NCBI GenBank assembly: GCA_934667175.1
Contig: CAKULN010000009.1
Coordinates: 1-64,000 of the forward strand
DNA: 64,000 nucleotides
DNA from: an uncultured Bacteroidales bacterium
GTDB lineage: Bacteria > Bacteroidota > Bacteroidia > Bacteroidales > UBA932
Direction: 5' to 3'
Position 1 is the first letter of the stretch; each line of letters begins with the position of its first letter. Under the pieces are notes generated by a model. It saw only the letters and a program-made list of their open reading frames with translations. It did not search any database and was not told the DNA's origin. Of the stretch, positions 23,106-62,410 are shown one piece after another. The position numbers were made by a program, and so were the translations under genes.

Positions 23106-24740
23106 TTACTTGAGTGAACGCACAACGCGGAATCCCATGATGTCGTAGATCACAGCGCCGCTGCCCGGACTGTCGCTGGTCTTGCAGTTGGCGTTCTGCA
23201 TCCGCCAGGTCTTCACTGAGCAATTGCCTGTGTAGGTTCTGTAGCATCCGCCTCTTGTGATGACATACTGATCAATCATATCTCGTGGAGTCTCAGGTCC
23301 CCAAGGGTCTGTTTCCTCGGCATCCGAGGCATAGTCCAATGAGATGTACCATTCGCCGGTCATCTCTTCGATGTTGCCGCAAAGATCGTAAATGCCAAGG
23401 GCGTTCGGCTTCTTAAGGCCGACCACATGGACATGCTCCTCGTCCCCTATCTTGGAGTTATCCTCGTACCATCCGACCTCGTCGATGTTGTCGCTTCCGG
23501 CGAAATAGAAAGGATACTTCTCGTTTTCGGGGCCGCCTTTGGATGCATATTCAAACTCGGCGTTGGTCGGAAGGCGGTAGCCGTTGGCCTCCTTGTTTCT
23601 GGTGACTGTGGCCTCCAGCAATTCCTTGCCGGTCTCCTTGTCCCACTGGGTGTTGGAGAACGTGTAAACCGGAGTGTAGCCTTTCTGCTCGCTAAGTTTG
23701 TTGCAGTAGTTCATCGCCTCGTAAAGGGTCACTTTTGAGACAGGGTAAAGGTCGTTGCTCTTGTCGTTTGACGGATTGTAGCCCATCACCTGAAGGAATT
23801 CCCTCTGGGTGACCTCGTAGCGTCCCATCTCAAAGGCTGAGATGTTCACCTTGTGGGAGTTCTTTTGGTCCTGAGCGTTCTTTACCGTCTTGAAATACTC
23901 GCTTGGCTGCTTGCCGAGGATGAACGAGCCAGCTCCGATGGCCACCATGTCGAACGCCTTGAAGTTCGGGTTGGTCTCCTTTTCGGTTCCGGGAGTTGTT
24001 CCGCCACCGCCTGTGGAATTGGTTGTAACCACCGCGAAATAGGTCTTGCTGTCCATTGTCTTCTCGTTGATGACAAGGTATTGGACAGCCTCCGTGAAGT
24101 CAGCGGCGACTCCGCTGCCCGGAGTGACCGTAGAGCCTTCCGTGACGACTATGACCGGCTTGAGTGCGGTGACATCCGTGCCTTCTGGCATGGTGATCGT
24201 GATTGTCGGGTAGCTGATCTGGCTTGAGATCTGTCCGGGGATGATGAACTGTGTGATAGCCGCGCCGGTCTCGGTGCCGGGTGTCGGATCCTCGCCCCCA
24301 CCGCCGCTCCCGGCATTCTGCATGACAGTTATCGTGTAGGTGCTGACTGGTGTGTCATTCTGGTAGGCGGTGACGTCAATCGTGGTCTGGCGCGGATTGG
24401 CGGTCGTGTTCTTGGCCACAGACAGGGACAGACGCGCCTTGCTGCAGGTAGCGACGCACCAAATCTTATCCGCCGTCGGAATCTCGGTCTTCAATTTGTA
24501 ATCACCGAGGTTGTTGTCATTGATGTCAACGAAAGAGATGGCGCTTGTCATCACTCCCGACTTATCAACGGTAAGTATGCCGTTCTCCTGGTCGAAAGAG
24601 ACAATCCCTTCCGGGATCTGCGAGATTTCCGCCGAAAGCTCGACTTTCGCTACCGGGTCATCGCCGGTCCCTTCGCATGAAGCGAAGGCGAACAGCGCGG
24701 CGAGTCCGGACAGAATGTATGATGATATCCTGAATTTCAT
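23106..24740 (-). CDS. BACON/SUMF1-domain lipoprotein (locus A, second copy)
   Basis: Lipoprotein signal with cysteine at residue 22 (ALFAFASC). Residues about 75-145 look like a BACON domain (WCVATCSKARLSLSVAKN), followed by a Ser/Gly-rich linker, a second all-beta domain near 160-245 resembling DUF5018-type modules, and a SUMF1/FGE-like domain from about 265 (MVAIGAGSFILG, MGRYEVTQREFLQVMG, YRLPTNAEFEYASKGG, LGIYDLCGNIEEMTGEW, ending MGFRVVRSLK). FGE enzymes oxidise a sulfatase cysteine, but many SUMF1 proteins are non-catalytic binding proteins. The C-terminal motif has RGGCYR and GNCS, not the usual copper-site spacing, so oxidase activity is doubtful. Last gene of the locus A operon. Confidence 0.85.
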   Translation of the reverse strand: MKFRISSYILSGLAALFAFASCEGTGDDPVAKVELSAEISQIPEGIVSFDQENGILTVDKSGVMTSAISFVDINDNNLGDYKLKTEIPTADKIWCVATCSKARLSLSVAKNTTANPRQTTIDVTAYQNDTPVSTYTITVMQNAGSGGGGEDPTPGTETGAAITQFIIPGQISSQISYPTITITMPEGTDVTALKPVIVVTEGSTVTPGSGVAADFTEAVQYLVINEKTMDSKTYFAVVTTNSTGGGGTTPGTEKETNPNFKAFDMVAIGAGSFILGKQPSEYFKTVKNAQDQKNSHKVNISAFEMGRYEVTQREFLQVMGYNPSNDKSNDLYPVSKVTLYEAMNYCNKLSEQKGYTPVYTFSNTQWDKETGKELLEATVTRNKEANGYRLPTNAEFEYASKGGPENEKYPFYFAGSDNIDEVGWYEDNSKIGDEEHVHVVGLKKPNALGIYDLCGNIEEMTGEWYISLDYASDAEETDPWGPETPRDMIDQYVITRGGCYRTYTGNCSVKTWRMQNANCKTSDSPGSGAVIYDIMGFRVVRSLK

Positions 24741-24766: not shown

Positions 24767-26011
24767 TTATTTGATGTATCTGACCACACGGAATCCGGTT
24801 GTGCCTCTTGTCTCAGGACCAGGCTGATAGTTCGAGTCCCAGAGCTTGCCTTTGTATTCCGGGCCGTTGTAGTAGCCGCCTTTGATGATCTTGCCTCCGT
24901 TCCTGCTTTCCGGCGCTCCTACAGGGTCGGTCTCAGGATCGGTTGTCTGGAGTTCGTCGTTGTACTTGTAGGCCCAGTCGTAGCACCATTCCGAGACGTT
25001 GCCGCTCATGTCGTACAGCCCAAGGGCGTTCGGTTTTTTCTTGGCGACCTCGTGAAGGGCCTCGTTATCGCCTATCTTTGAGTTATCCTTGTACCAGCCG
25101 ACCTCGTCAAACACGTCGGAGCCGGCGAATATCGTAGGATTCTTGAGTCCTTCCTCTCCTCCTTTGGCCGCGAATTCCCATTCCGCCTCGGTAGGAAGCC
25201 TGTAGCCGTTGCCGGCAGTGGCAGGATCGAACTTATAGTCCTGCATTTTCATGTAGCTCCAGCCATCGGACACTTCGATGATCTCTCCTGGAGTGTAGAC
25301 AGGAGCCAGCCCTTCTTTCTCGCTGAGCTTGTTGCAGAACTCGCAAGCCTCAGACCATGTCATTTTGTTTACAGGGTAGTTGTCTCCGACAAATTTTGAA
25401 TAGGAAGGGTTCTTCCCCATAATCTCTTCATAGAGTTTCTGGGTGACGACAGTGGTCGCGATGTAGTAGCCCTTGGAGAGAGTCACGTCATGGGCGTAGG
25501 CCTGCGCATACGTTGTGCCGTCCACATTGTTCTTATTCTCCGCAAACCTAAATGTTCCTGGCTTCACGATGACCATGTCGAACGCTGACGCGAAGGCGTT
25601 CTGGTTCACTGTCAGTGTCAGAGGGGTGAGAGTGGCTGTCTCGTCGCTGCACACGACAGCGAGGTCCACAGTGCCTGTCTTTGCGGTTTTCTCGGCTGTA
25701 GGCTCTGTGGACAGTGTGAGCACATCGCCTTCAATGCTGGCGACGCACCAGTCAGCGTTGGATTTTGCTGAATATGTGTAGGTGACATCCGCCTCCGGAG
25801 CGTTTGTGACCATCGCGAGCGGCAGGGCTATCTGTCCGCCGGAATATTCAAAGGTGACTTCGGTTCCGTTCGCGGAAGCACCCTCGGAGGTCTGTGGCTC
25901 TGAGATGGTGAGATTTCCGTTGATGATCAACTTGTCATCCTTGCAGGATGAGAATGCGGCGCAGAACAGCGCGCAAGCGCAACTCAATGCGTAAAATCTA
26001 CTTGTTTTCAT
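24767..26011 (-). CDS. BACON/SUMF1-domain lipoprotein (locus A, first copy)
   Basis: Lipoprotein with cysteine in AAFSSCKDD near residue 23. A BACON-like beta domain (residues 35-140, DWCVASIEGDVLTLSTEPT) is followed by a SUMF1/FGE-like domain (MVIVKPGTFRF, YYIATTVVTQKLYEEIMGKN, YRLPTEAEWEFAAKGG, LGLYDMSGNVSEWCYDW, TGFRVVRYIK). It is a tandem paralogue of the neighbour; both share the stretch DEVGWY-DNSKIGD. The C-terminal region IIKGGYYNG has no cysteine, so it cannot be a copper FGE and is more likely a surface binding or structural protein. 414 residues. Confidence 0.85.
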   Translation of the reverse strand: MKTSRFYALSCACALFCAAFSSCKDDKLIINGNLTISEPQTSEGASANGTEVTFEYSGGQIALPLAMVTNAPEADVTYTYSAKSNADWCVASIEGDVLTLSTEPTAEKTAKTGTVDLAVVCSDETATLTPLTLTVNQNAFASAFDMVIVKPGTFRFAENKNNVDGTTYAQAYAHDVTLSKGYYIATTVVTQKLYEEIMGKNPSYSKFVGDNYPVNKMTWSEACEFCNKLSEKEGLAPVYTPGEIIEVSDGWSYMKMQDYKFDPATAGNGYRLPTEAEWEFAAKGGEEGLKNPTIFAGSDVFDEVGWYKDNSKIGDNEALHEVAKKKPNALGLYDMSGNVSEWCYDWAYKYNDELQTTDPETDPVGAPESRNGGKIIKGGYYNGPEYKGKLWDSNYQPGPETRGTTGFRVVRYIK

Positions 26012-29827: not shown

Positions 29828-32800
29828 TTAGATTCCAAGTCTTAACGTCATGGTGAACTGTCTCGGGACAGGGGAGGCCACGCCTCCGGTGTTGAAGAAT
29901 TCAGGATCCTGTCCGTTCAGTTTCTTGTCCGAATAGATAAGGAACAGGTTGGTCGCCTGGATCTTGAGCGAAAGGTCACTAACTTTGAGCTTAGAGATCA
30001 TATTCTTTGGAAATGAGTAGGTGATCGAGATCTCTTTCATTCTGATGAAATCGCCTTTGGCTATCCTCTCTGTGGAGTAATTGTAGGCGTTGTAGGCGTA
30101 ACTCAGGTACGGATCCTGCTGGTTCGCCCGCTTGTCCGCGATCACCGGCACGTTGGTGACTTTCTCGTCGCCGCCGGCGGTCCATCTGTTGATGAACTCC
30201 CGAGGCATGGCGTCAAGGTCGCTGTAGACATTGTGGAACACCGGGTCGAGGCGGATGACATTGCCGAATGAATATGTGATGAAAGCGTTCAGGGTGAATC
30301 CTTTGTACCGGAAAATGTTGCCGAGGCTTCCTGTCACGGTCGGATCTGTCGGTCCCTCGTAGACCAGATGGTCTTTCTTGAGCTGTTCCTGAAAGTTGAT
30401 GTCGCTGACTGTCAGTTCTCCGTCCTCGTTGATGAAAGTAGGGTAGCCGTTCTCGTTGAGCCCTTGGAAGTCCATTGAGAACAGGGCCCTGACCGGATAG
30501 CCTTCCATGGCGAAGCCGTTGCCGCTGATCATGTCCATCACAGAAGCGTTGGACTGCAGGTCGGTTACCTCATTCTTCGCATTGGAGAAGATGAAGTCTG
30601 TGTTCCAGCTGAAATCCTGAGTCTTGATGTTGTGTGTGGAGACAGTCAGTTCCACTCCGCTGGATTTCATGCTGGCGACATTGGCGAACTTCGCCAGCTG
30701 GCCGCCGGTGCCTTTGGTGTAGATCAGACCGATCAGGTCGAAGTTGTTTCTCTTGTACCAATCGGCCTCTACGTTGATCCTGTTGTCTATGAATCCGATT
30801 TCCGCTCCGATGTTGAGCTCGTGCTTCTTCTCGTAGGTCAGCTCGCTGTTCTCGACATTGGACAGTATGAGGCCGGACTCTTTGACGGAGGTGAACGGAC
30901 GCCATGTGTTGTAGCTGTTTATGATCGCCTTGGAGTTGCTCACGCTTGCCGGGCCCCTGTCCGCGGTCAATGAATATGATGCCTTCAGCGTCATGTTGGA
31001 GACCACGTCCCTGATCGGCTGCCAGAACTCTTCCTCATGGGCGTTCCATGCTGTGGAGACGTTCCAGGTAGGCAGCCATCTGGCCTTGCGGCTCTTGCCG
31101 AGCTTGTTTGATCCCTCGTAACGGATGGTCCCGTTCAAGGTGTATTTCCCTTTGTAGGAATATGTCCCAGTCCCGAAGAATGAGACTTCCCGCTGCCTGG
31201 TTCTGTCCACAGAGTAGTAGCCGGCGTTCTCCTCGTTACCCTGCTTGAAGTAGAGGTAGTCGTACGATGGAAGCATACCTAAGTCGTACTGCATTCCGAC
31301 ACCGTTGAACCAGGTCCTCTCCCTGTCCACGGCATTGGTCTCCATTCCGCCGAACATATTCATTATGTGATCTTCTCCGAAGACATTATTGTAGCTTGCG
31401 GTGGCCCTGAAGTCGTAGCTTTCCATTGAATATTTCGTCTCGCGGTAAAAGCCTCCGACCGGAAGCACCGAGACCGGAAGGGAATTGGCCTTGTCGGGGT
31501 CGGTGTAGAGCCAAGGGTTGGCGCTGCGCATTGTGGCGTCGTCCATCGCCCTGAACGCCCATGCCTGGTTCGAGTAGTCGGTAATGGTGTGCGCCTGGAC
31601 TGTCGATGATGTTTTGTAGGCTCCCAGCACGGACAATTCCAGAGGCTTGACCGGATGCCATTTCATCTCTCCCTGGAACTTGAGGTCGGTGACCTTCAGG
31701 TCGATGTAGTTGTTCTCAAGCTCGTGCAGGATGTTGAACGGCGCGTAGTTGCGGACATAATATTCATTGGCGTCCAATGTCCTGGACGTGTTGAGGGCGT
31801 AGGAGTACGGGTTGATGTCGAAATCCCTTCTGACCTCGCCGCTGAGCGGATCCACTGAAGAACTCAACGTCCCCGGAGCTCTCTGCTTTCTGTAGGAGGC
31901 GTTGCCGATAAGGTTCAGGGACAGCGTCTCTGTGATGTGATAGAGAGCGTTCAGGTTGGCCGTGTAGCGCTTTACAGAGCTCTGCTTTGTCCATCCCGGA
32001 TCGTTCATCACGCTGAGTGAAGTGTAGTAGGACGCTTTCTCCGTGCCGCTTGACATGCTTACAGCATGGTTTCTGGAGATGTTGTCGTTGAACAGGATGT
32101 CGAACCAGTCGGTGTTTCTGTATTCGGCTTCCTGAAGGTAGGCTTTCCTGGCCTCATCCGTGTTCATCAGACCGAACGAGCCGCTGGTCGCGTCGTATTC
32201 GTTGATCAGGTGGTACATTTTTCCGTACACGCCACTGTTGGACGCCCGGTAGACATCCGCGAGATTAAGGTAGCCGGCCTGCTCCATCTCTTTGTAGACA
32301 CCCATCTGCTCCTGTGAGTTCAGAATGTTGAAACGTCGGTAGGTAGGTTTGAGACGGTAGCTGTACTCTCCCGTGTATGTGATTTTGTTGCTTCCGGCAT
32401 GTCCTTTCTTTGTGGTGACGACGATTACACCGGCCATCGCGCGGGCTCCATAGATTGAGGTCGCCGAGCCGTCTTTCAGAATCTGAAAACTCTCGATGTC
32501 GTCGGCGTTGAGGCCTGCTATGGCGGAACTGATCAGGGTGACCGCGTCTCCGCTGGAAAGGTTGTCCGCATCGACTTCGGCCACGTCCTCCATGATCACT
32601 CCGTCCACAACCCACAGCGGTTTGGAACTGCCGTAGATGGAAGTCGCGCCCCGGACTCGGATCTTAGGGGATGTTCCGAAAGTTCCCGACACATTCTGTA
32701 CGGACACTCCGGCGGCTCTCCCCTCAAGAGCCCGGCTTATCTCGGCGACTCCGTCCAGTTTGACATCGTCGGCGCTCAGTTTTGTGGTGGCTCCGGTGAA

Positions 32801-33154
32801 GAGACGCTTGTCCATCTTCTGCATTCCGGTCACGACGACTCCCTCAAGGACTTCAGTGTCTGGATCCAGGGTGATATTCATCTCTCCGCCTGTGATGGAC
32901 ACGTCCTTGGGCTTCATGCCAAGACAGCTGATTTCAAGGATTTTCGCAGACGTACTGACTCTCAAAGAGAATTTTCCGTCAATGTCTGTGATGGTGGCGT
33001 TTTTCGTTCCCTTTTCCAAGACGGCGGCCCCTATGACGGGCAGGTTGTCTTCGGAGGAAATGACCACACCGTTGACAATCCGGGAGTCTTGTCCAAACAA
33101 ACACCCGAAGCCTGCGATGACGCAGGCGATCATCAAGCATAAGAAGTGCTTCAT
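29828..33154 (-). CDS. SusC/RagA-family TonB-linked outer-membrane transporter (locus A)
   Basis: TonB-dependent importer, here of unknown substrate, possibly peptide given the peptidase neighbour. A signal peptide (residues 1-21) is followed by a carboxypeptidase-D-like domain (VNGVVISSEDNLPVIGAAVLEKG), the plug (LEGVVVTGMQKMDKRLFTG, ALEGRAAGVSVQ, WVVDGVIM, FQILKDGSATSIYGARAMAGVIV) and a long beta barrel ending in FTMTLRLGI. 1108 residues is normal for SusC. It is the first gene of the locus A operon and has a long, structured leader upstream. No FecR or anti-sigma gene is adjacent. Confidence 0.95.
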   Translation of the reverse strand: MKHFLCLMIACVIAGFGCLFGQDSRIVNGVVISSEDNLPVIGAAVLEKGTKNATITDIDGKFSLRVSTSAKILEISCLGMKPKDVSITGGEMNITLDPDTEVLEGVVVTGMQKMDKRLFTGATTKLSADDVKLDGVAEISRALEGRAAGVSVQNVSGTFGTSPKIRVRGATSIYGSSKPLWVVDGVIMEDVAEVDADNLSSGDAVTLISSAIAGLNADDIESFQILKDGSATSIYGARAMAGVIVVTTKKGHAGSNKITYTGEYSYRLKPTYRRFNILNSQEQMGVYKEMEQAGYLNLADVYRASNSGVYGKMYHLINEYDATSGSFGLMNTDEARKAYLQEAEYRNTDWFDILFNDNISRNHAVSMSSGTEKASYYTSLSVMNDPGWTKQSSVKRYTANLNALYHITETLSLNLIGNASYRKQRAPGTLSSSVDPLSGEVRRDFDINPYSYALNTSRTLDANEYYVRNYAPFNILHELENNYIDLKVTDLKFQGEMKWHPVKPLELSVLGAYKTSSTVQAHTITDYSNQAWAFRAMDDATMRSANPWLYTDPDKANSLPVSVLPVGGFYRETKYSMESYDFRATASYNNVFGEDHIMNMFGGMETNAVDRERTWFNGVGMQYDLGMLPSYDYLYFKQGNEENAGYYSVDRTRQREVSFFGTGTYSYKGKYTLNGTIRYEGSNKLGKSRKARWLPTWNVSTAWNAHEEEFWQPIRDVVSNMTLKASYSLTADRGPASVSNSKAIINSYNTWRPFTSVKESGLILSNVENSELTYEKKHELNIGAEIGFIDNRINVEADWYKRNNFDLIGLIYTKGTGGQLAKFANVASMKSSGVELTVSTHNIKTQDFSWNTDFIFSNAKNEVTDLQSNASVMDMISGNGFAMEGYPVRALFSMDFQGLNENGYPTFINEDGELTVSDINFQEQLKKDHLVYEGPTDPTVTGSLGNIFRYKGFTLNAFITYSFGNVIRLDPVFHNVYSDLDAMPREFINRWTAGGDEKVTNVPVIADKRANQQDPYLSYAYNAYNYSTERIAKGDFIRMKEISITYSFPKNMISKLKVSDLSLKIQATNLFLIYSDKKLNGQDPEFFNTGGVASPVPRQFTMTLRLGI

Positions 33155-33156
33155 GT

Positions 33157-33174
33157 ATTAAATTAGTTAATTAA
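33157..33174. repeat. Inverted repeat, SusC-proximal arm
   Basis: ATTAAATTAGTTAATTAA is the exact reverse complement of 33323-33340. It begins 3 bp upstream of the SusC start codon of locus A. Confidence 0.85.
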
Positions 33175-33176
33175 TA

Positions 33177-33211
33177 GGATGCGGCTTACCTTGTCACAAG
33201 ACAGCGCATCC
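33177..33211. promoter_or_regulatory. Leader hairpin upstream of locus A SusC
   Basis: GGATGCG (33177-33183) pairs with CGCATCC (33205-33211), and within it CTTG at 33190-33193 pairs with CAAG at 33197-33200. It lies just ahead of the SusC start in the probable 5' leader and could influence translation. Confidence 0.5.
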
Positions 33212-33392
33212 ATTTGTTAATGTTCATTCACCGCACCCACCAGTCAAAGACATCGAATGTTGGGGAAAATGTCTTCTGTGGCTTTTGACGCGGCATTTTT
33301 ACTCATGTCGGCGTGAAGTTAGTTAATTAACTAATTTAATCAAAGAAAATTTTCAACTATAACGTTTTTTCGTTCCGCGCACCTTGAAAAGA
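33212..33392. other. Non-coding leader/promoter region of locus A
   Basis: No gene is seen. The stretch has a further imperfect nested inverted repeat (33248-33253 against 33269-33274) and the distal arm of the 18-bp inverted repeat (33323-33340, in which 33319-33334 is itself a 16-bp palindrome). The locus A promoter must lie here, but I find no exact TAnnTTTG box for it. Confidence 0.5.
33323..33340. repeat. Inverted repeat, distal arm
   Basis: Exact reverse complement of 33157-33174, 148 bp away. It overlaps the perfect 16-bp palindrome TTAGTTAATTAACTAA at 33319-33334, which looks like a possible protein-binding site. Confidence 0.85.
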
Positions 33393-33509
33393 CTATTTCT
33401 TGCGCTGTCCGGTGCGATGCCCCTGCTCGTAGAGCTCGAGGGAGTTGATGACGTTCTGCCAGATGCTGTAGAGGCCGCCGGCGACGGAGGTCACCGGGGT
33501 CATGTAGGA
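33393..33509 (-). pseudogene. Displaced 3' fragment of the BASS transporter gene
   Basis: Reads in frame as the last 38 codons of the transporter at 34728-35735 (SYMTPVTSVAGGLYSIWQ onward) but ends GHRTGQRKK and a TAG stop at 33393-33395, where the intact gene ends GHRTGQHHKASK. It has no start codon. It looks like the original gene end, separated from the gene by insertion of the ATPase unit. Confidence 0.85.
33404..33509. repeat. 106-bp direct repeat, left copy
   Basis: Matches 34748-34853 over 106 bp with a single difference that I can see (C or T after GATGCCC). Copies are 1344 bp apart and bracket the ATPase gene. Confidence 0.92.
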
Positions 33510-33521
33510 CATATCAAATTA

Positions 33522-33554
33522 GTTCACAATTTTGTGGACCACAAGATTGTGAAC
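33522..33554. promoter_or_regulatory. 16-bp-arm palindrome in the ATPase promoter
   Basis: GTTCACAATTTTGTGG (33522-33537) and CCACAAGATTGTGAAC (33539-33554) are inverted around one A with a single mismatch. The right arm covers the TTG at 33547-33549 that would serve as the -33 element, so a bound protein would block transcription. It lies 13 bp inside the left direct repeat, so it could instead be an end of the inserted unit. Confidence 0.75.
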
Positions 33555-33570
33555 TTTTGATTTATTTATA

Positions 33571-33578
33571 TATATTTG
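33571..33578 (+). promoter_or_regulatory. -7 box (TATATTTG) of the ATPase gene
   Basis: Exact TAnnTTTG match 18 bp before the ATG at 33597, with a TTG 21 bp upstream inside the palindrome. Start site near 33584. Confidence 0.7.
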
Positions 33579-33596
33579 CGTAAAAACCAATGTGCT

Positions 33597-34724
33597 ATGG
33601 ATAAACCTTTTGTGTATGGCGTGGCTGTGTCCGGGGATAATTTCACGGATAGGGAAAAGGAAACCAAACGCCTGAGGATGAATTTTGAGTCGGGAGTCAA
33701 TACTATCCTGATTTCACCTCGGCGTATGGGCAAGACCTCTATTGTAGGCAAGGTTATGTCTTCCGTTACTGACCCTAAGATCAAGGTCGTGATGATGGAC
33801 ATATACGATTGCAGGAGTGAGTTTGACTTTTATGAGCGGTTTGCCACGTCCATCGTGAGAGGTGCTGCAGGCAAGATTGAAAACGTGGTTGCGTATGCCA
33901 AGGAATTTCTTGGGCGTTTTTCCGCGAAAATCTCGGTAAGCCCCGGACCGTCAACGGACTATTCAATTTCTTTCTGCATGTCTCCAAAAGAAATTGATCA
34001 TGCTGAAATTTTGGATCTTCCTCAACGGATCGCTGCAAGGAAAGGTATTCACATTGTCGTGTGCATTGATGAGTTCCAGCAGATTGGGGAATTTCCAGAC
34101 AGCCTTGCCGTCCAAAAAAGGTTGCGTGGATTCTGGCAACATCAAGAAAATGTCTCTTATTGTTTGTTTGGAAGCAAAAAACACCTGATGGAAAAGATTT
34201 TCCAGAGAAAGAGCATGCCTTTCTATCAGTTTGGTGACATGATTTTTCTTGACCGGATTCCTACGGAGGATTGGATTGATTATATCTGTTCTAGATTCAA
34301 GAGTTGCTCAATGTCAATAACAAGGGAACAGGCTGAAAGAATATGTGCGCTCGTTGAGAATTATTCATCTTATGTCCAGCAATTATCATGGAATGTCATG
34401 ATAGAGGCGGACAGGGTTGTGTCCGATGCGGACATTGATGCCGCATTTGAGGAATTGCTCCACCAGACTTCGTCTTTGTTTATGGAACAGATAGGGTCTC
34501 TGACTTCTTTTCAGATGAATTTCCTTAAGGCTGTTGTCGAGGGAGTTCATTCTGGTTTCACATCATCGGACATTCTTGCAAGATATTCCATGGGTGCGAA
34601 ATCTAATGTGGCCAGAATACAGAAAACTTTGATCGAGAAAGAGTTGATTGAAAAGCAAGGCAAGATGATATTCGCCTCGGATCCTGTTTTCTCGACGTGG
34701 TTCAAAAGGGAATACTGCCGTTAG
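33597..34724 (+). CDS. AAA+ ATPase with C-terminal winged helix (archaeal-type ATPase family), in a repeat-flanked unit
   Basis: P-loop ATPase: Walker A SPRRMGKTSIVG at about residues 43-54, Walker B IHIVVCIDEFQQI near 160, and a sensor-like region CLFGSKKHLM. The C-terminal part (EQIGSLTSFQMNFLKAVVEG, SDILARYSMGAKSNVARIQKTLIEKELI) is a winged helix-turn-helix. It resembles the archaeal-type ATPase family (PF01637-like), expanded in many Bacteroidota and mostly of unknown function. No nuclease domain is attached. The start was moved to ATG 33597 because 33576 is a TTG inside the promoter box. Its base composition is AT-richer than its neighbours, it has its own promoter and operator, and it sits between 106-bp direct repeats. 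Confidence 0.85.
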   Translation: MDKPFVYGVAVSGDNFTDREKETKRLRMNFESGVNTILISPRRMGKTSIVGKVMSSVTDPKIKVVMMDIYDCRSEFDFYERFATSIVRGAAGKIENVVAYAKEFLGRFSAKISVSPGPSTDYSISFCMSPKEIDHAEILDLPQRIAARKGIHIVVCIDEFQQIGEFPDSLAVQKRLRGFWQHQENVSYCLFGSKKHLMEKIFQRKSMPFYQFGDMIFLDRIPTEDWIDYICSRFKSCSMSITREQAERICALVENYSSYVQQLSWNVMIEADRVVSDADIDAAFEELLHQTSSLFMEQIGSLTSFQMNFLKAVVEGVHSGFTSSDILARYSMGAKSNVARIQKTLIEKELIEKQGKMIFASDPVFSTWFKREYCR

Positions 34725-34727
34725 GAT

Positions 34728-35735
34728 CTATTTTGAGGCCTTGTGGTGCTGTCCGGTGCGATGCCCTTGCTCGTAGAGCTCGAGGGAGTTGATGACGTTC
34801 TGCCAGATGCTGTAGAGGCCGCCGGCGACGGAGGTCACCGGGGTCATGTAGGAATATCCCAGCCAGATCAGGAAGCCGGAGTTCTTCTGGCCGAGGGCCT
34901 GGCCGGCGGTGATCTCGTCCGCTTTTATTGACTTCCGGTCTGCGGTTCCGTCGGCTTTCCTGCCTGCCAGTCTTCCGACGGCGAACTGGATGAGAGTGCA
35001 GACCAATGAGATGACACCTATCATTACTGCTGTCCACACGGAGATTCCGCTGTTCACAAGCGATCTTGTCGCCAGATAGATCGAGAAGGTCAGGGCCATG
35101 CCCCAGCAGTAGAACGCCCAATCAGTGAACCGCATCAGCCAACGCTGAAGCCTTTTCATCGTGTAGCGTATGAGCCATGCCAGCAGCAGAGGCAGGACAA
35201 GCAGGGGGAATACCCTTGCGCAGATGGCTGTGAAACCCTCAATGAATGAGGATCCTGTGTCAGGATTTACAATCGGTATGGCGACCGGGAGGATAACAGC
35301 GACCGCTATGTTGATCAGTACTACGTATGAGACTGTGTCTGAAAGGCTTCCTCCTAATTTGCTTGTGATCACCCCGGCCGCCGCCGCGGTAGGACATATC
35401 AAACAGAGCATCGCGCATTCTGCAAGTATCCTTAAGTCGCCGTCCGGCATCGTGGCGACCAACCATGTGAGTGGGATGAATGTCGCGATCTGAAAAGCAA
35501 GCACAATGAAATGCCATTTTCTGAACCGGAGGTCGTGTGGAGAGATCGTGTTGAACTGAAGGAACAGCATCGTGGCCATGAAAACCGGCTGGACATCCTT
35601 GGCGAATCTGGAGAACCATGGTTCGATGCCAGGGGATAATGGCTTGATCAAGAATAAAATCAGATAAGAAACGATTCCTATGATGATTGCCAGAGGCAAC
35701 ATCCAATCCTTGATGAATTTCACAATTTTCGCCAT
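34728..35735 (-). CDS. Bile acid:sodium symporter (BASS) family transporter
   Basis: 335 residues with about nine or ten hydrophobic segments, starting WMLPLAIIIGIVSYLILFLI. The conserved block CLICPTAAAAGVITSKLGGSLSDTVSYVVLINIAVAVILP is typical of BASS and related transporters. Substrate unknown; relatives carry bile acids, pantoate or other organic anions. Its last codons (HHKASK) derive from the boundary of the inserted ATPase unit, while an older version of the 3' end (QRKK) is stranded at 33393-33509. An exact promoter box lies 20 bp upstream. Confidence 0.85.
   Translation of the reverse strand: MAKIVKFIKDWMLPLAIIIGIVSYLILFLIKPLSPGIEPWFSRFAKDVQPVFMATMLFLQFNTISPHDLRFRKWHFIVLAFQIATFIPLTWLVATMPDGDLRILAECAMLCLICPTAAAAGVITSKLGGSLSDTVSYVVLINIAVAVILPVAIPIVNPDTGSSFIEGFTAICARVFPLLVLPLLLAWLIRYTMKRLQRWLMRFTDWAFYCWGMALTFSIYLATRSLVNSGISVWTAVMIGVISLVCTLIQFAVGRLAGRKADGTADRKSIKADEITAGQALGQKNSGFLIWLGYSYMTPVTSVAGGLYSIWQNVINSLELYEQGHRTGQHHKASK
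34748..34853. repeat. 106-bp direct repeat, right copy
   Basis: Second copy of 33404-33509, here inside the 3' part of the BASS transporter gene. Confidence 0.92.
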
Positions 35736-35754
35736 AATCCTTCGATTCGACTGA

Positions 35755-35762
35755 CAAAGTTA
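35755..35762 (-). promoter_or_regulatory. -7 box (TAACTTTG) of the BASS transporter
   Basis: Minus strand TAACTTTG matches TAnnTTTG, 19 bp before the start codon. Confidence 0.6.
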
Positions 35763-36028
35763 ATCAAAGCCTTTGACCTAAAAAAATCCTTATATATTCA
35801 GAAGCGGGGGCAGAAGCGGGTGATGTTTGATGGCTCGGGATCTTTTCCCGAATATAAATGAATGTTTATTCGTGGTATTCATGGCTCTGCGAAATCGTTT
35901 GTTTCTTGAAATTGTGTTCCAAAGTATTGTAAAATTCGCATTTATTACTTGTTGGTTATCTTGAAATAGAAAAATATTCCTATATTGGTAAGTACTCATT
36001 ATTCAAACTTATTTAATAATTATTGCCA
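35763..36028. other. Intergenic region ahead of locus B
   Basis: No gene is seen. It is AT-rich and holds a small hairpin TCGGGA/TCCCGA (35835-35851), a doubled CAGAAGCGGG, and near 35976 a TATATTGG one base off the -7 consensus with a TTG about 20 bp upstream. The locus B promoter is probably this last element. Confidence 0.45.
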
Positions 36029-39000
36029 ATGGGTAAACGAACTTATCTGAGAAGGACTTTGGTTTTTCTCCTGTCGTGGTGTATTATGTCCACCATGACA
36101 ATCAGCGCCCAGAACGTCTCCGTCGGGTCTGCCGTGACTCTGACGGGTACAGTGCTGGACAAATCATCTGAACCTTTGCCTGGAGCGTCAGTGCTGGTGA
36201 AGGGTACTTCAAACGGAGTCGCCACGGATGTGAACGGCAAATTCACAATCAGGCTGCAACCGACCTCCTCAACGGTGCTTGTCTTTTCATTTGTCGGAAT
36301 GAAATCGCGGGAAATCCCCTACTCCGCGTTCAGGGACGGCGCCAAGGTTGTGCTTGAGGATGATTCGAACAGTCTTGACAACGTGGTGGTCACTGGCTAT
36401 GCCAACATCCGGAAGGACAGCTTCACGGGAACCTCCACGACGGTCGGCAGGGAAGACTTGATGAAAGTCTCTCCGAACAATCTGATGAAGGCCTTGAGCG
36501 CTTTTGATCCGTCTTTCAAGATGATCACCGACAACGCGCAGGGTTCCAACCCGAACAACATGTCCGAGTACTACATCCGAGGCCGCTCTGGCGTGTCTGA
36601 GGTGAAGGAACTGGACAGGGTGACTGGAGATGTCAGCGAATTCGCACTGAAGAATAATCCGAGTGCGCCGATATTCATTCTCGATGGCTTCGAGGTGGAT
36701 CAGGCCACCATTTACGACTTAGACATGAACCGTGTACAGAGTGTCACTACCTTGAAGGATGCGGCAGCCACCGCTGTTTATGGCTCGAGGGCTGCCAACG
36801 GCGTCATCGTCATAGAGACTGTGACTCCTGAGCCTGGTCTCGTGCACCTGACATATTCAAACACGACATCGGTCGATGCTCCCGACCTCAGCAGTTATCA
36901 TCTGATGAATGCCAGGCAGGCTCTTGAGGCTGAATATTATGCCGGCCTGTACGAGTCCGCGACGGCAGATGACAAGAATGCCGGAGGATTGATCAACTAC
37001 GGGGAACTGTACAACAATGTGATAAGGGGTGTTGACACAGACTGGATCGCCAAACCGGTCCGCACAGCGCTGAGCCACAAGCATTATCTGTCGGTCAGTG
37101 GTGGCTCTGAAGATCTCCGTTGGAACGCTGACATCAACTACCAGCGCAAGAATGGCGTGATGAAAGGTTCTGACAGGAACACTTATGGCGCGTCGATGTC
37201 CCTTGACTACCGCTACCGCACTCTACAGATCAGAAACAAGGCCTCCTTCAACGTTGTCGATGCCTCGGATTCTCCATACGGCTCGTTCAGCGACTACGTC
37301 AGGATGAAACCATATCTCGCTCCGACCGATCCGGAGACCGGGCAGTATTATAAGGTGTTCAGCATTTACAGGAACGTCCGCTCTTCCATCAGCGAGCCGG
37401 TATATGTCACCAACCCTCTTTACGAGGCCTCGCTCGGAAGCTTCAACAGGACAAAGTACCGCGAGTTCATCGACAATCTCAGCCTCAGGTGGAACATCAC
37501 TCCTTACCTCATGGCCAAGGGCACTTTCAGCGCCTCCTACAAGATTCAGGACGAGGATGTTTTCACCGACCCGTCATCTGGAGTCTACACGAAATCAGAT
37601 GTCAAGGAAAAAGGCAGCTACAGGGATGGGGATGTACGTTCGCTGAGATGGACCCTTAACGGAATGATTTCCTATAACAGGGACATCCGTAAAAATAACA
37701 TCAACGCATCCCTTGGTGTCGAGGCGTCCGAGACTCAGTCAAGCTCTCGGTACGCGACATACATAGGCTTTGTGGAAGGAGCCAAGGCGGCTCCCGGCAA
37801 CGCCCTCAAAATCAAGGATGAGCCTACGTTCAATGACAGCAACTCAAGGCGTTTCGGGACCTATCTCCAGGGCAACTGGTCTTACGACAACATCTACCTT
37901 CTGGATGTCTCCGGACGTTACGAGGGATCCTCTGCGTTCGGAGCCAAGAAGAAAATGGGACTCTTCTGGTCTTCGGGAGCGGGACTCAATGTCCACAACT
38001 ATGCTTTCATGAAAGACGTGGACTGGCTGGACAGATTCAAGGTGAAGGCTACCTACGGAGTCACCGGAAAGGCCAACTTCAGCCCGTATCAGGCCAGGAC
38101 CACGTACGACATAATGTACGACAACCCTTACATCGACCAGTGGGGTATGGCTCTGAAGGCTCTCGGCAATGAGAACCTTAAATGGGAGAAGGTAAACAAA
38201 CTGAATGTCGGAACGGAACTGTCGTTCTTTCGCAACGCCGTGACGATCATGTTCGACTGGTACCATGAGCTGACGACCGACCAGGTCGAGTCCGTGTCCA
38301 TCCCTTCGTCTTCCGGATTCACATCCTACAAGGGTAATCTGGGAAAAGTCCTGAACCAGGGAGCTGACCTGAGGCTCAACGTCAGGGCTTTCTCGAACCG
38401 AGACTGGGATGTCTACGTGTTCACGAATCTGAACCGCAACACCAACACCATCAAGGAGATCGGTGACGCTCTGAAAGACTACAACACCAGCATCGACAAC
38501 TTCTTCAAGGGGTATTCGTCCTCCAACACGGACAGCAAGTACAGTCAGCCTTTTACCAAATATGAGGTGGGTAACTCACTGTCGGCGATCTATGGCATGA
38601 AATCTTATGGCATCGATCCGGCTAACGGAAAGGAACTGTACGTGAAACGTGACGGCACTGTCACCTACGACTGGACCTCTTCCGAGCAGCAATGTTTGGG
38701 CGACTACGATCCTAAACTCTCCGGAGTGTTTGGCTTTAATGTACGCTGGAGAAACTGGACGGCCTACACCACGATGTCTTTCAAGTGCGGAGGTCAGGCT
38801 TACAACAGCACGCTGGTCTCCATCGAGAATGTGGATCTTGAGAAGTACAGCGGAGACGAGCGTGCCCTTACCGACCGATGGATTCAACCGGGGGACAACG
38901 CCACCCTCAAGAGCATCAAGGACAGGACCCATGTCACAAGACCGACCTCAAGGTTCGTGCAGGATGACAACGAGATGACAATGTCATCGTTCTCCGTAGG

Positions 39001-60928: not shown

Positions 60929-62410
60929 ATGAAAAAGAGCATTTGCCTGTATTTCCAGGTTCATCAGCCTACAAGACTGAGGCAGTACCGATTCTTTGAC
61001 ATCGGCAAGGATTCCCACTACTATGATGATTTCGCTGACAGGACTATCCTTCGCAGGATAGCCCAGCGATGCTATATTCCGATGAACAACCTCCTGCTGG
61101 ACCTTATCAAGCGGTACGGAAGCGACTTTAAGGTGACATTCTCGATCACCGGTTCCGTTCTGGAGCAGTTCGAGAGGTACGCACCGGATGTGCTGGACAG
61201 CTTCCGGGAACTGGCTAAGACCGGTTGTGTGGAGTTCCTCGGGGAGACATATTACCACTCCCTCGCCTCGCTTGCCAATTTCGGAGAATTCAAGCATCAG
61301 GTGGAGAAGCACTCCGCCGCGATCGAGAGGTATTTCGGAGTGAAGCCTACGGCTTTCAGAAACACTGAACTGATATATTCAGACTCCATCGGCCGCGATG
61401 TCTATGACCTTGGCTTTAAGGTCATGCTCGCTGAGGGTGCCCGGCATATTCTTGGATGGAAGAGTCCGGACTACATCTACACTGACAGTCAGCAGAAGCA
61501 CTTGAAACTGCTGCTTCGCAATTATTCTCTCAGCGATGACATCGCGTTCCGTTTCTCCGACAGAGGATGGAAGGACTGGCCGCTTACGGGTGAGAAGTAC
61601 CTATCTTGGCTTAAGGCCGCCGACGGAGACATCGTGAATCTGTTCATGGACTACGAGACATTCGGAGAGCATCAGAAAGAGAGTACGGGAATATTCGATT
61701 TCATGAGATATCTGCCTGAGATTCTGCTGAAGGACGGTTCGTTCGAGTTCACCACTCCGACTTTGGCCGCCAAAAAGCTCAAGCCTATAGCTGAGATCGA
61801 GGTTCAGGATCCGATCTCATGGGCCGATGAGGAGAGGGATGTGACCGCATGGCTTGGAAACGAGCTCCAGCAGGATGCTTACAACAAGCTTTATGGACAG
61901 GCCGAGAAACTGGCCATTCTGAATGACCCGGTTCTCTGGGAGGATTTCGGGCACCTTCAGGAGAGTGATCACCTTTATTATATGAGCACCAAGTTCTTCT
62001 CTGACGGTGAGGTTCATAGTTATTTCAATCCTTACAACACTCCTTACGAGGCGTTCATCAACTACATGAACGTGCTTAGTGACTTTATCATCAGGATTGA
62101 TGATGCGATGACCACTTCTGGAAAGAAGGTGAAGGACAGCGCTTCGGCAGGCAAGTCATCGAAGAAAGTCGCTTCGGCAGGCTCAGCGACCGGCGTGAAG
62201 AAGGCCGCTGTCAGAAAGAAAGTGGCTGAGGAATCTTCATCAAAGGTCTCTGTTTCTAAAAAAGCGACAAAGCCGGTCACGTCGGTCACTGAGCTTGTCG
62301 AAGTGACCGCCCCGTCGAGTAAGTCTTCAAAAAAAGTCGCTTCGGCAAGCTCAGCGACCGCAAAAAAGAGTCCAAAAACAAAGACAACCAAACAAGTAAA
62401 AAAGAAATAA
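60929..62410 (+). CDS. GH57-family alpha-amylase/glucanotransferase with REP-bearing C-terminal tail
   Basis: Acts on alpha-glucans; family GH57. The N-terminal motif YFQVHQPTRLRQYRF, the catalytic Glu in AFRNTELIYSD near residue 145 and the Asp in LFMDYETFGEHQ near 240 are present. The core ends about residue 395 with RIDDAMTT. It is followed by a tail of about 95 residues rich in Lys, Ser, Ala and Val, encoded largely by three copies of the REP-like repeat (e.g. SVTELVEVTAPSS). The tail is likely disordered. 493 residues. Directly abuts the glycogen synthase gene. Confidence 0.9.
   Translation: MKKSICLYFQVHQPTRLRQYRFFDIGKDSHYYDDFADRTILRRIAQRCYIPMNNLLLDLIKRYGSDFKVTFSITGSVLEQFERYAPDVLDSFRELAKTGCVEFLGETYYHSLASLANFGEFKHQVEKHSAAIERYFGVKPTAFRNTELIYSDSIGRDVYDLGFKVMLAEGARHILGWKSPDYIYTDSQQKHLKLLLRNYSLSDDIAFRFSDRGWKDWPLTGEKYLSWLKAADGDIVNLFMDYETFGEHQKESTGIFDFMRYLPEILLKDGSFEFTTPTLAAKKLKPIAEIEVQDPISWADEERDVTAWLGNELQQDAYNKLYGQAEKLAILNDPVLWEDFGHLQESDHLYYMSTKFFSDGEVHSYFNPYNTPYEAFINYMNVLSDFIIRIDDAMTTSGKKVKDSASAGKSSKKVASAGSATGVKKAAVRKKVAEESSSKVSVSKKATKPVTSVTELVEVTAPSSKSSKKVASASSATAKKSPKTKTTKQVKKK
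62168..62190. repeat. REP-like copy in the GH57 gene (1)
   Basis: GTCGCTTCGGCAGGCTCAGC followed by GAC; arms GTCGCT/AGCGAC are inverse copies. It is translated as part of the C-terminal tail. Confidence 0.8.
62284..62308. repeat. REP-like copy in the GH57 gene (2)
   Basis: GGTCACT and AGTGACC arms are perfect inverse copies around GAGCTTGTCGA. This copy lies in the opposite orientation to the others in the gene. Confidence 0.8.
62336..62358. repeat. REP-like copy in the GH57 gene (3)
   Basis: GTCGCTTCGGCAAGCTCAGC followed by GAC, same orientation as copy 1 with one base change in the core. Confidence 0.8.

Follow-up and report, generated by a model that had tools for sequence, protein, structure and literature searches.

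A Single AAA+ ATPase Gene between Duplicated Host Gene Ends in Bacteroidales: A Probable Minimal Mobile Unit

In a 64,000-nucleotide (nt) stretch of the genome of an uncultured Bacteroidales bacterium (contig CAKULN010000009.1, positions 1 to 64,000; the whole stretch is hereafter called the window), an AAA+ ATPase gene with its own control region lies between two direct copies of the 3′ end of a transporter gene. We propose that the DNA between the copies is probably a single-gene mobile unit with ragged ends, which would enter the 3′ ends of host genes and leave long target duplications of variable length. Comparison with related loci makes it well supported that the unit moves, and in the best case, a locus designated L165, the alignments with its relatives are taken to show that the recipient's own gene end was duplicated. 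A first-pass annotation of the window had put forward an undescribed minimal mobile unit as a hypothesis, and this hypothesis draws strong support from ATPase pairs that have changed place, from the repeats that bracket the gene, and from sites that lack it.

The repeat is 106 nt long, and its copies (Table 1) differ by a single C/T mismatch; a second repeat scan scores the same pair as 113 nt at 96% identity. It is the sole repeat pair longer than 28 nt within positions 31000–37500. The 1238-nt insert has a guanine-cytosine (GC) content of 42–44%, compared with 48–57% in most of the nearby 500-nt intervals; a GC content of about 40% is also found in 35500–36249, near the insert. The ATPase gene is the only open reading frame (ORF) of at least 100 aa that lies wholly within the insert. 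No integrase or transposase was found among the ORFs of at least 80 aa between the copies, and the unit has no transposase match in Pfam, NCBIfam, or PHROGs. No inverted pair of at least 16 nt links the two ends of the unit, and the window holds no tRNA and no RNA family above cut-off. The transporter ORF has the right copy at its 3′ end, and its protein ends in HRTGQHHKASK, whereas the left copy translates to a stranded remnant ending in HRTGQRKK, with a stop codon at 33393–33395 (coordinates by eye). The repeats with one differing base, the AT-richer gene between them, the two alternative tails, and the lack of an integrase or transposase had all been described in the first-pass annotation, and each was recovered here. 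The label "transporter" is also taken from that source; the product looks like a membrane protein by eye, and the gene has no Pfam match.

Could the ATPase gene be an old neighbor of the transporter? The first-pass annotation had named, as its main alternative, a tandem duplication with subsequent loss, which here would concern the transporter 3′ end, and direct repeats are the mark of such an event too; an assembly artefact would be a further explanation of this kind. It had also proposed a search for transporter relatives without the ATPase. We searched for the transporter in 12 and then in 398 genomes of a related family and fetched 42 loci, 12 of them at 27–52% identity and the best 30 from the 398-genome search at 50–66%. 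Forty of these loci run on for 1200 nt or more past the gene's 3′ end; the other two run on for 62 nt (L081) and 297 nt (L119). The ATPase was present at none of the 42, and because of this we consider that the unit is an insertion at the window site, as far as the sequences can tell. Furthermore, genes of this class stand between different repeats at other loci, and the protein cluster of the window ATPase is recorded from 19 contigs. A duplication of the transporter 3′ end around an old neighbor, or an artefact, is thus hardly credible, and simple tandem duplication was dropped on the strength of the 42 transporter loci (L081 and L119 being short).

Relatives of the ATPase were then compared across loci. 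The sample comprised 80 loci from named genomes (80 of 455 confirmed) and 90 of 106 listed places (88 of 398 genomes matched), with contig ends and the weakest matches left out; after the removal of duplicates, there were 163 ATPase entries, including the window, and a few regions are present twice (e.g., L012 and L131). Pairs of loci were scored for shared flanks where both flanks were at least 600 nt long; these pairs are not independent of one another. Among the 43 pairs with 90–100% nucleotide identity, no flank is shared in 15, one in 17, and both in 11; L012/L131, one of the 15, is a same-genome pair and is to be dropped. At 80–90% identity, neither flank is shared in 64 of 70 pairs and one flank in the other 6, and at 75–80%, neither is shared in any of the 83 pairs. 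For the control genes (PF00155 aminotransferases and the transporter), both flanks are shared in 4/4, 7/13, and 8/23 pairs of the same three classes and neither flank in 0/4, 5/13, and 13/23. Near-identical units stand in unrelated neighborhoods in the pairs L197/L198 (98.8%), L014/L016 (97.6%), L124/L125 (97.3%), L042/L049 (96.4%), and L027/L028 (95.6%). The proposal that the same ATPase be sought at other loci has thus been borne out, with relatives at many unrelated sites and pairs that are 90–98.8% identical.

In the 14 moved pairs above 90% identity, the shared segment starts 40–174 nt upstream of the start codon and ends anywhere from 5 nt before the end of the ORF to 197 nt after it. 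By reading of the alignments, it takes in the promoter box and usually the operator. Host DNA is sometimes carried along: positions 2626–2763 of L123 are the first 138 nt of a neighbor gene (TfoX-like by reading) that is complete in L125, and L014 bears a short fragment from the end of a gene, of which L016 has more (by reading).

To score bracketing repeats, flanks of up to 1490 nt were used, and the left copy had to end within 400 nt of the start codon and the right copy to begin within 350 nt of the stop codon. Direct repeats with an expectation value (E) of 1e-6 or less bracket the ATPase at 28 of 153 loci (window included), compared with 5 of 303 mismatched flank pairs; 20 of the 153 loci remain once repeats of the unit's own operator are removed. 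When the flanks were limited to 400 nt, repeats were found at 30/150 ATPase loci at E ≤ 1e-6 and 37/150 at E ≤ 1e-3, compared with 13/445 and 19/445 mismatched pairs. Two control families had none (0/27 and 0/39, hence 0/66), even at E ≤ 1e-3. A rougher early control gave 40/563 for random placements versus 26/80; the mismatched flanks of the main test (5/303) and the control families (0/66) are the cleaner controls.

In the 20 non-operator cases at E ≤ 1e-6, the repeat is 28 to 234 nt long, and its sequence varies between loci, with no constant attachment core. Fourteen loci are candidates for target duplication, namely the window, L164, L165, L166, L181, L209, L027, L057, L060, L064, L069, L074, L132, and L172; the 4-kb loci among them may have further copies elsewhere in their genomes. 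The repeats of L060 and L065 are alike, and L069 adjoins an apparent insertion sequence (by reading). The view that all bracketing repeats are target duplications was dropped, as operator repeats and loci with many copies may have other causes.

The first-pass annotation had asked whether other ATPase loci also carry duplicated host gene ends. They do at L164, L165, and L136, although bracketing repeats as such occur at a minority of loci. At L164, two convergent ORFs have their 3′ ends within a 119-nt repeat (96.6% identical), and both would thereby keep their ends after insertion. At L165, an identical 31-nt repeat is the last codons of a FecR gene. At L136, the 3′ end of an exonuclease-like gene (named by reading; the gene has no Pfam match) is repeated at 87% identity over at least 162 nt, at which point the contig ends; its right flank being short, this locus is not among the 153. 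Furthermore, L197 and L198 show a nested locus with recurring 3′ ends of an RsmF-type methyltransferase gene and an outer-membrane protein gene (partly by reading).

Sites without the ATPase were found for some of the loci. None of the six examined relatives that have the FecR gene of L165 carries the ATPase there: L243 can be aligned over the entire joined site and has a single copy of the repeat, and in L248 both neighbor genes are about 200 nt apart. Both L165 copies end in CTCTGGTAG, an ending absent from all six relatives, and because the copies share this private ending, the second would have come from the recipient. For L166, two relatives hold both neighbor genes close together without the ATPase, and the search for a contiguous empty site for L164 found none. 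The left gene of L126 lacks the ATPase in 14 of 14 examined loci (17 fetched loci match; one of the 14 ends 3 nt past the match), and because the neighbors vary, no duplication can be defined there.

Could the same structures arise by Campbell-type integration, in which a circle carrying the ATPase and a host gene end recombines homologously, with entry into new sites being rare? Arrays in which repeat and cargo alternate with similar boundaries (R-cargo-R-cargo-R; L078, L041, and L017) would suit such a process, and loss by recombination between the repeats would yield the single-copy state. On the other hand, it leaves unexplained how the first copy gained the new target's own sequence, and both L165 copies share the recipient's private ending; we consider it very unlikely.

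The control region is a further mark of the family. The window unit has a palindrome of 17 + 17 nt, 94% complementary, just upstream of the promoter, which the first-pass annotation had overlooked. A strong dyad lies within 150 nt upstream at 114 of 162 ATPase loci, compared with 3/162 shuffled sequences and 1/71 control genes; it is also present at 11 of 30 DUF4143 ATPases, and in ten relatives, an operator dyad stands on both sides of the gene. The TAnnTTTG box, a promoter sequence of the Bacteroidetes type, lies within 70 nt of the start codon at 145 of 163 family loci, and its presence in the window agrees with the earlier claim that the ATPase gene has its own promoter.

Table 1. Coordinates of the inserted unit, its bracketing repeats, and the transporter gene in the window.
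Feature	Position	Strand	Basis
Original 3′ end of the transporter gene, stranded outside the left repeat (RKK + stop)	33393..33403	-	Translation of the left copy; coordinates by eye
Left 106-nt repeat copy (duplicate of the transporter 3′ end)	33404..33509	.	Repeat search
Inserted 1238-nt unit: ATPase gene with operator and promoter, and 23 nt past the stop codon	33510..34747	+	Extent is the DNA between the repeat copies
Palindromic operator-like sequence, two tandem CACAA..TTGTG dyads	33521..33555	.	Repeat search; the type recurs before many family members
TAnnTTTG promoter box	33571..33578	+	By eye
Gene for the 375-aa AAA+ ATPase, with Walker A motif PRRMGKTS, DE motif CIDEFQQ, and a winged-helix-like C-terminal part	33597..34724	+	ORF, alignment, Pfam, structure model
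Right copy of the 106-nt direct repeat, within the intact transporter gene	34748..34853	.	Repeat search
Transporter gene, tail HHKASK encoded by the insert side	34728..35735	-	ORF list, translation

The family of the ATPase is very large. Of 7999 candidates scored, 7990 are homologous at E ≤ 1e-3, and the few named ones among the 120 homologues listed are Bacteroidales, Bacteroidaceae, or Cryptobacteroides. Against PF01637 (ATPase_2), the window protein scores 25.9 bits (E 1e-5), below the Pfam cut-off of 33.2; precomputed PF01637 assignments are present on its database cluster and on many homologues. The Walker A and DE Walker B motifs are kept, with G44, K45, T46, D157, and E158 invariant in 19 aligned sequences. 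The protein ends after the winged-helix region, and no nuclease domain was found in scans of Pfam, NCBIfam, and PHROGs. A sequence-profile search matched no solved structure, and the AlphaFold model is moderate to weak, with a predicted local distance difference test score (pLDDT) of 69. The top two Foldseek matches to this model are archaeal AAA+ ATPases of the ATPase_2 type, PABY2304 (2qen, E 3.5e-12) and SSO1545 (2fna, E 6.2e-11), followed by Orc2 and Cdc6; the Orc1/Cdc6-type matches have E of about 1e-8 to 1e-7, and template modeling scores (TM-scores) are low, at 0.26–0.38 for the top ATPase and Orc matches. VIA-align places TnsC among its top matches with a large root-mean-square deviation. 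Because the model is weak, these matches serve for the general class only. We take the window protein as an AAA+ domain plus a winged helix of the Orc/Cdc6 and ATPase_2 type, as far as the model allows, and no more; it shares this fold and the Walker motifs with the archaeal ATPases but falls below the PF01637 cut-off. To our knowledge, the AAA+ ATPases of such families have no established function. Comparison with defense proteins gave weak PDC-S01 matches only (best E 0.0014). Searches of viral_contigs with the ATPase alignment and with the transporter found no relative, and a viral origin was rejected.

The ratio of nonsynonymous to synonymous substitution rates (dN/dS) is 0.02–0.10 in 12 ATPase pairs, ten of which are listed as sharing neither flank. 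These values indicate that the protein is under strong purifying selection during its changes of place and, consequently, that it matters to whatever keeps the gene.

How does the unit compare with known systems? Integrative elements with tyrosine integrases rebuild the 3′ ends of genes or tRNAs. The units at the window, L164, L165, and L136 resemble them in insertion at a gene 3′ end, direct repeats, and the rebuilt end; the window unit differs in that it is a single gene of 1.2 kb without an integrase, and the repeat varies by locus. The earlier suggestion of an element that rebuilds a gene 3′ end holds with respect to the place of insertion and the direct repeats; as no attachment core is constant, this is not classical site-specific integration. 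Site-specific integration, suggested by the position of the repeat at a gene 3′ end, was dropped since the sequence and length of the repeat differ between loci and no integrase was found. Insertion sequences and DDE or Y1 transposons make short target duplications of fixed length. The window unit is like them in its one-gene size, its relatives' multiple sites, and target duplication, but it has neither a transposase nor an inverted pair of at least 16 nt joining its ends, and its 106-nt duplication (28 to 234 nt elsewhere) stands against the short, fixed ones of DDE, Y1, and serine transposons. A free-standing homing endonuclease gene would encode a nuclease domain, unlike the window ATPase in our scans. 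With Orc1/Cdc6 initiators and TnsC-type AAA+ proteins, the TM-scores are low, and no origin, helicase, or transposase partner was found. Our searches of the open-licence literature turned up no published account of such ATPase genes as mobile units.

Further parallels are the DUF4143/AAA_14 and PF09820/PDDEXK_9 ATPases, which have also expanded, in many cases to numerous copies per genome, and in some cases have repeats on both sides; they carry an extra domain that the window protein lacks, either a PDDEXK_9 nuclease (by Pfam) or DUF4143, described as a nuclease as well. At E ≤ 1e-6, 3 of 26 DUF4143 loci have bracketing repeats, and two of the three are the same place in related genomes; mismatched flanks gave 1 of 74. 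A PF09820 sample of 19 loci gave a single such case, and in this sample 12 matches are strong and 7 weak, several of the latter being ATPase_2-type genes. Several repeat-bracketed ORFs that had served as controls turned out to be DUF4143, PF09820, or PF01637 genes. These are hints that other expanded ATPase families may show the same pattern. With fragments counted, DUF4143 has 20–23 matches per genome in G048, G052, G059, G029, and G042 (about 2–3 Mb each), and PF09820 has 17 in G059 (genome about 2–3 Mb). In Cardinium, the expansion and recombination of DUF1703 genes have been reported, and the part of that report available to us gives no unit or mechanism of spread (PMC6387759).

It is conceivable that another enzyme, such as a REP-associated (repetitive extragenic palindrome) Y1 transposase or the nuclease of a DUF4143 or PDDEXK_9 ATPase, moves the unit in trans and makes the duplications. 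DUF4143, PF09820, and ATPase_2 genes and a gene with a weak match to REP-associated tyrosine transposases are similarly bracketed by repeats, and some of the bracketing repeats are dispersed intergenic repeats. On the other hand, the best cases have repeats made of host coding sequence, namely gene 3′ ends, rather than REP-like sequences, and no terminal sequence common to all units was noticed, though no systematic search for one was made. We regard mobilization in trans as unlikely.

How could a unit consisting of an Orc/Cdc6-like (ATPase_2-type) AAA+ gene, a dyad operator, and a promoter move with no transposase and no fixed ends? The winged helix may bind the operator, either for autoregulation or to mark the unit's own DNA. 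A DNA copy of the gene would be joined at a staggered or replicating break, and repair would then re-copy 30 to several hundred nucleotides of the target, either by filling in widely spaced nicks or by a template switch in which replication jumps back. At the window site, the unit would have entered the transporter 3′ end in this way, with 106 nt of target duplicated and the gene left intact with a slightly altered tail. Insertions that duplicate a gene 3′ end would survive because the gene is spared, and selection for whole genes would account for insertion at 3′ ends with no need for target recognition. In its most general form, the operator-bearing Orc/Cdc6-like AAA+ gene would promote its own insertion through replication or repair, without a transposase or fixed ends, and the target would be duplicated over tens to hundreds of base pairs; the same principle would lie behind the large DUF4143 and PDDEXK_9 expansions. 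We put this forward tentatively, as a possible but rather doubtful generalization, and we rate movement driven by the ATPase itself likewise.

Several observations weigh against the interpretation of the insert as a mobile unit. Neither an excision product nor movement has been observed. At the window site, the comparison reaches transporters of at most 66% identity. No bracketing repeat at E ≤ 1e-6 is present at 125 of the 153 family loci; decay of the repeats is assumed for the loci without them, and the sole series that would illustrate it is L136 (162 nt or more) and its relative L142, which retains only 16 nt. Eight of the 28 repeats are the unit's own operator on both sides (L026, L033, L050, L036, L029, L080, L059, and L034). 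More than two repeat copies per locus are held by L078 (two entries), L017, L041, L065, and L072, which may be dispersed repeats, and L052 also has more than two at a weaker E; the L166 repeat is partly dispersed in its genome. An early same-locus control was not clean, with 19 of 329 other ORFs bracketed at E ≤ 1e-6, a control contaminated because several of the matches are ATPase families or resemble REP-associated transposases. As for the sites lacking the ATPase, the FecR gene is followed by other sequence in 4 of the 6 relatives of L165, the genes flanking L166 are 10–12 kb apart in eight other genomes, and those flanking L164 are on separate contigs in G408, G320, and G446. Finally, the ragged ends and the carried host DNA (L123 and L014) suit passive uptake as well.

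In such passive uptake, a useful or addictive ATPase gene would arrive on random fragments, be joined by illegitimate or homology-assisted recombination, and then be retained by selection, with no dedicated mobility mechanism. The host fragments that travel along with the gene (L123 and L014/L016, by reading), a unit without nuclease, transposase, or integrase, the strong purifying selection on the protein, and bracketing repeats at only about a fifth of the loci would all be in keeping with it. It is harder to reconcile with the scale of the family, with a single-gene unit that re-inserts repeatedly while control genes show no bracketing repeats, or with the similar hints in other expanded ATPase families, of which DUF4143 is the example (3/26 versus 1/74). 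We consider passive cargo possible, though somewhat improbable, and retain the mobile single-gene unit as the probable explanation. If the units are of this minimal kind, then a large class of "hypothetical" genes would be mobile elements, as the AAA+ ATPases of such families are present in thousands of copies in Bacteroidales, and gene-sparing insertion by long target duplication would need biochemistry beyond that of known transposases.

Other repeat structures were seen along the way. At L078 (4494–7224), two ATPases of only 24% identity follow one another, and three copies of a 99-nt repeat that resembles a terminator plus promoter lie before, between, and after them. Further copies of the ATPase-bracketing repeat enclose toxin–antitoxin-like genes at L041 (3901–6095; a HigB-like protein just under the Pfam cut-off and a helix-turn-helix protein) and a cellulase gene at L017 (3707–7202). 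In G030 and G049, the loci L197/L198 and L297/L298 hold ATPase_2-type and DUF4143 ATPases and outer-membrane protein genes, separated by repeated methyltransferase gene ends (partly by reading). The gene with the weak REP-associated tyrosine transposase match (below the NCBI cut-off) is at L046 (3771–4784), where a 61-nt repeat at 88.5% identity brackets it. In the window itself, a 150-nt repeat pair at 23370–23519 and 24995–25144 (71% identity, 1625 nt apart) perhaps represents paralogous genes. Two tandem arrays lie at 13–206 (55-nt period) and 589–702 (24-nt period), and the CGGCAGGCTCAGCGACC motif of the first recurs at 62175 (62140–62360), near the other end of the window.

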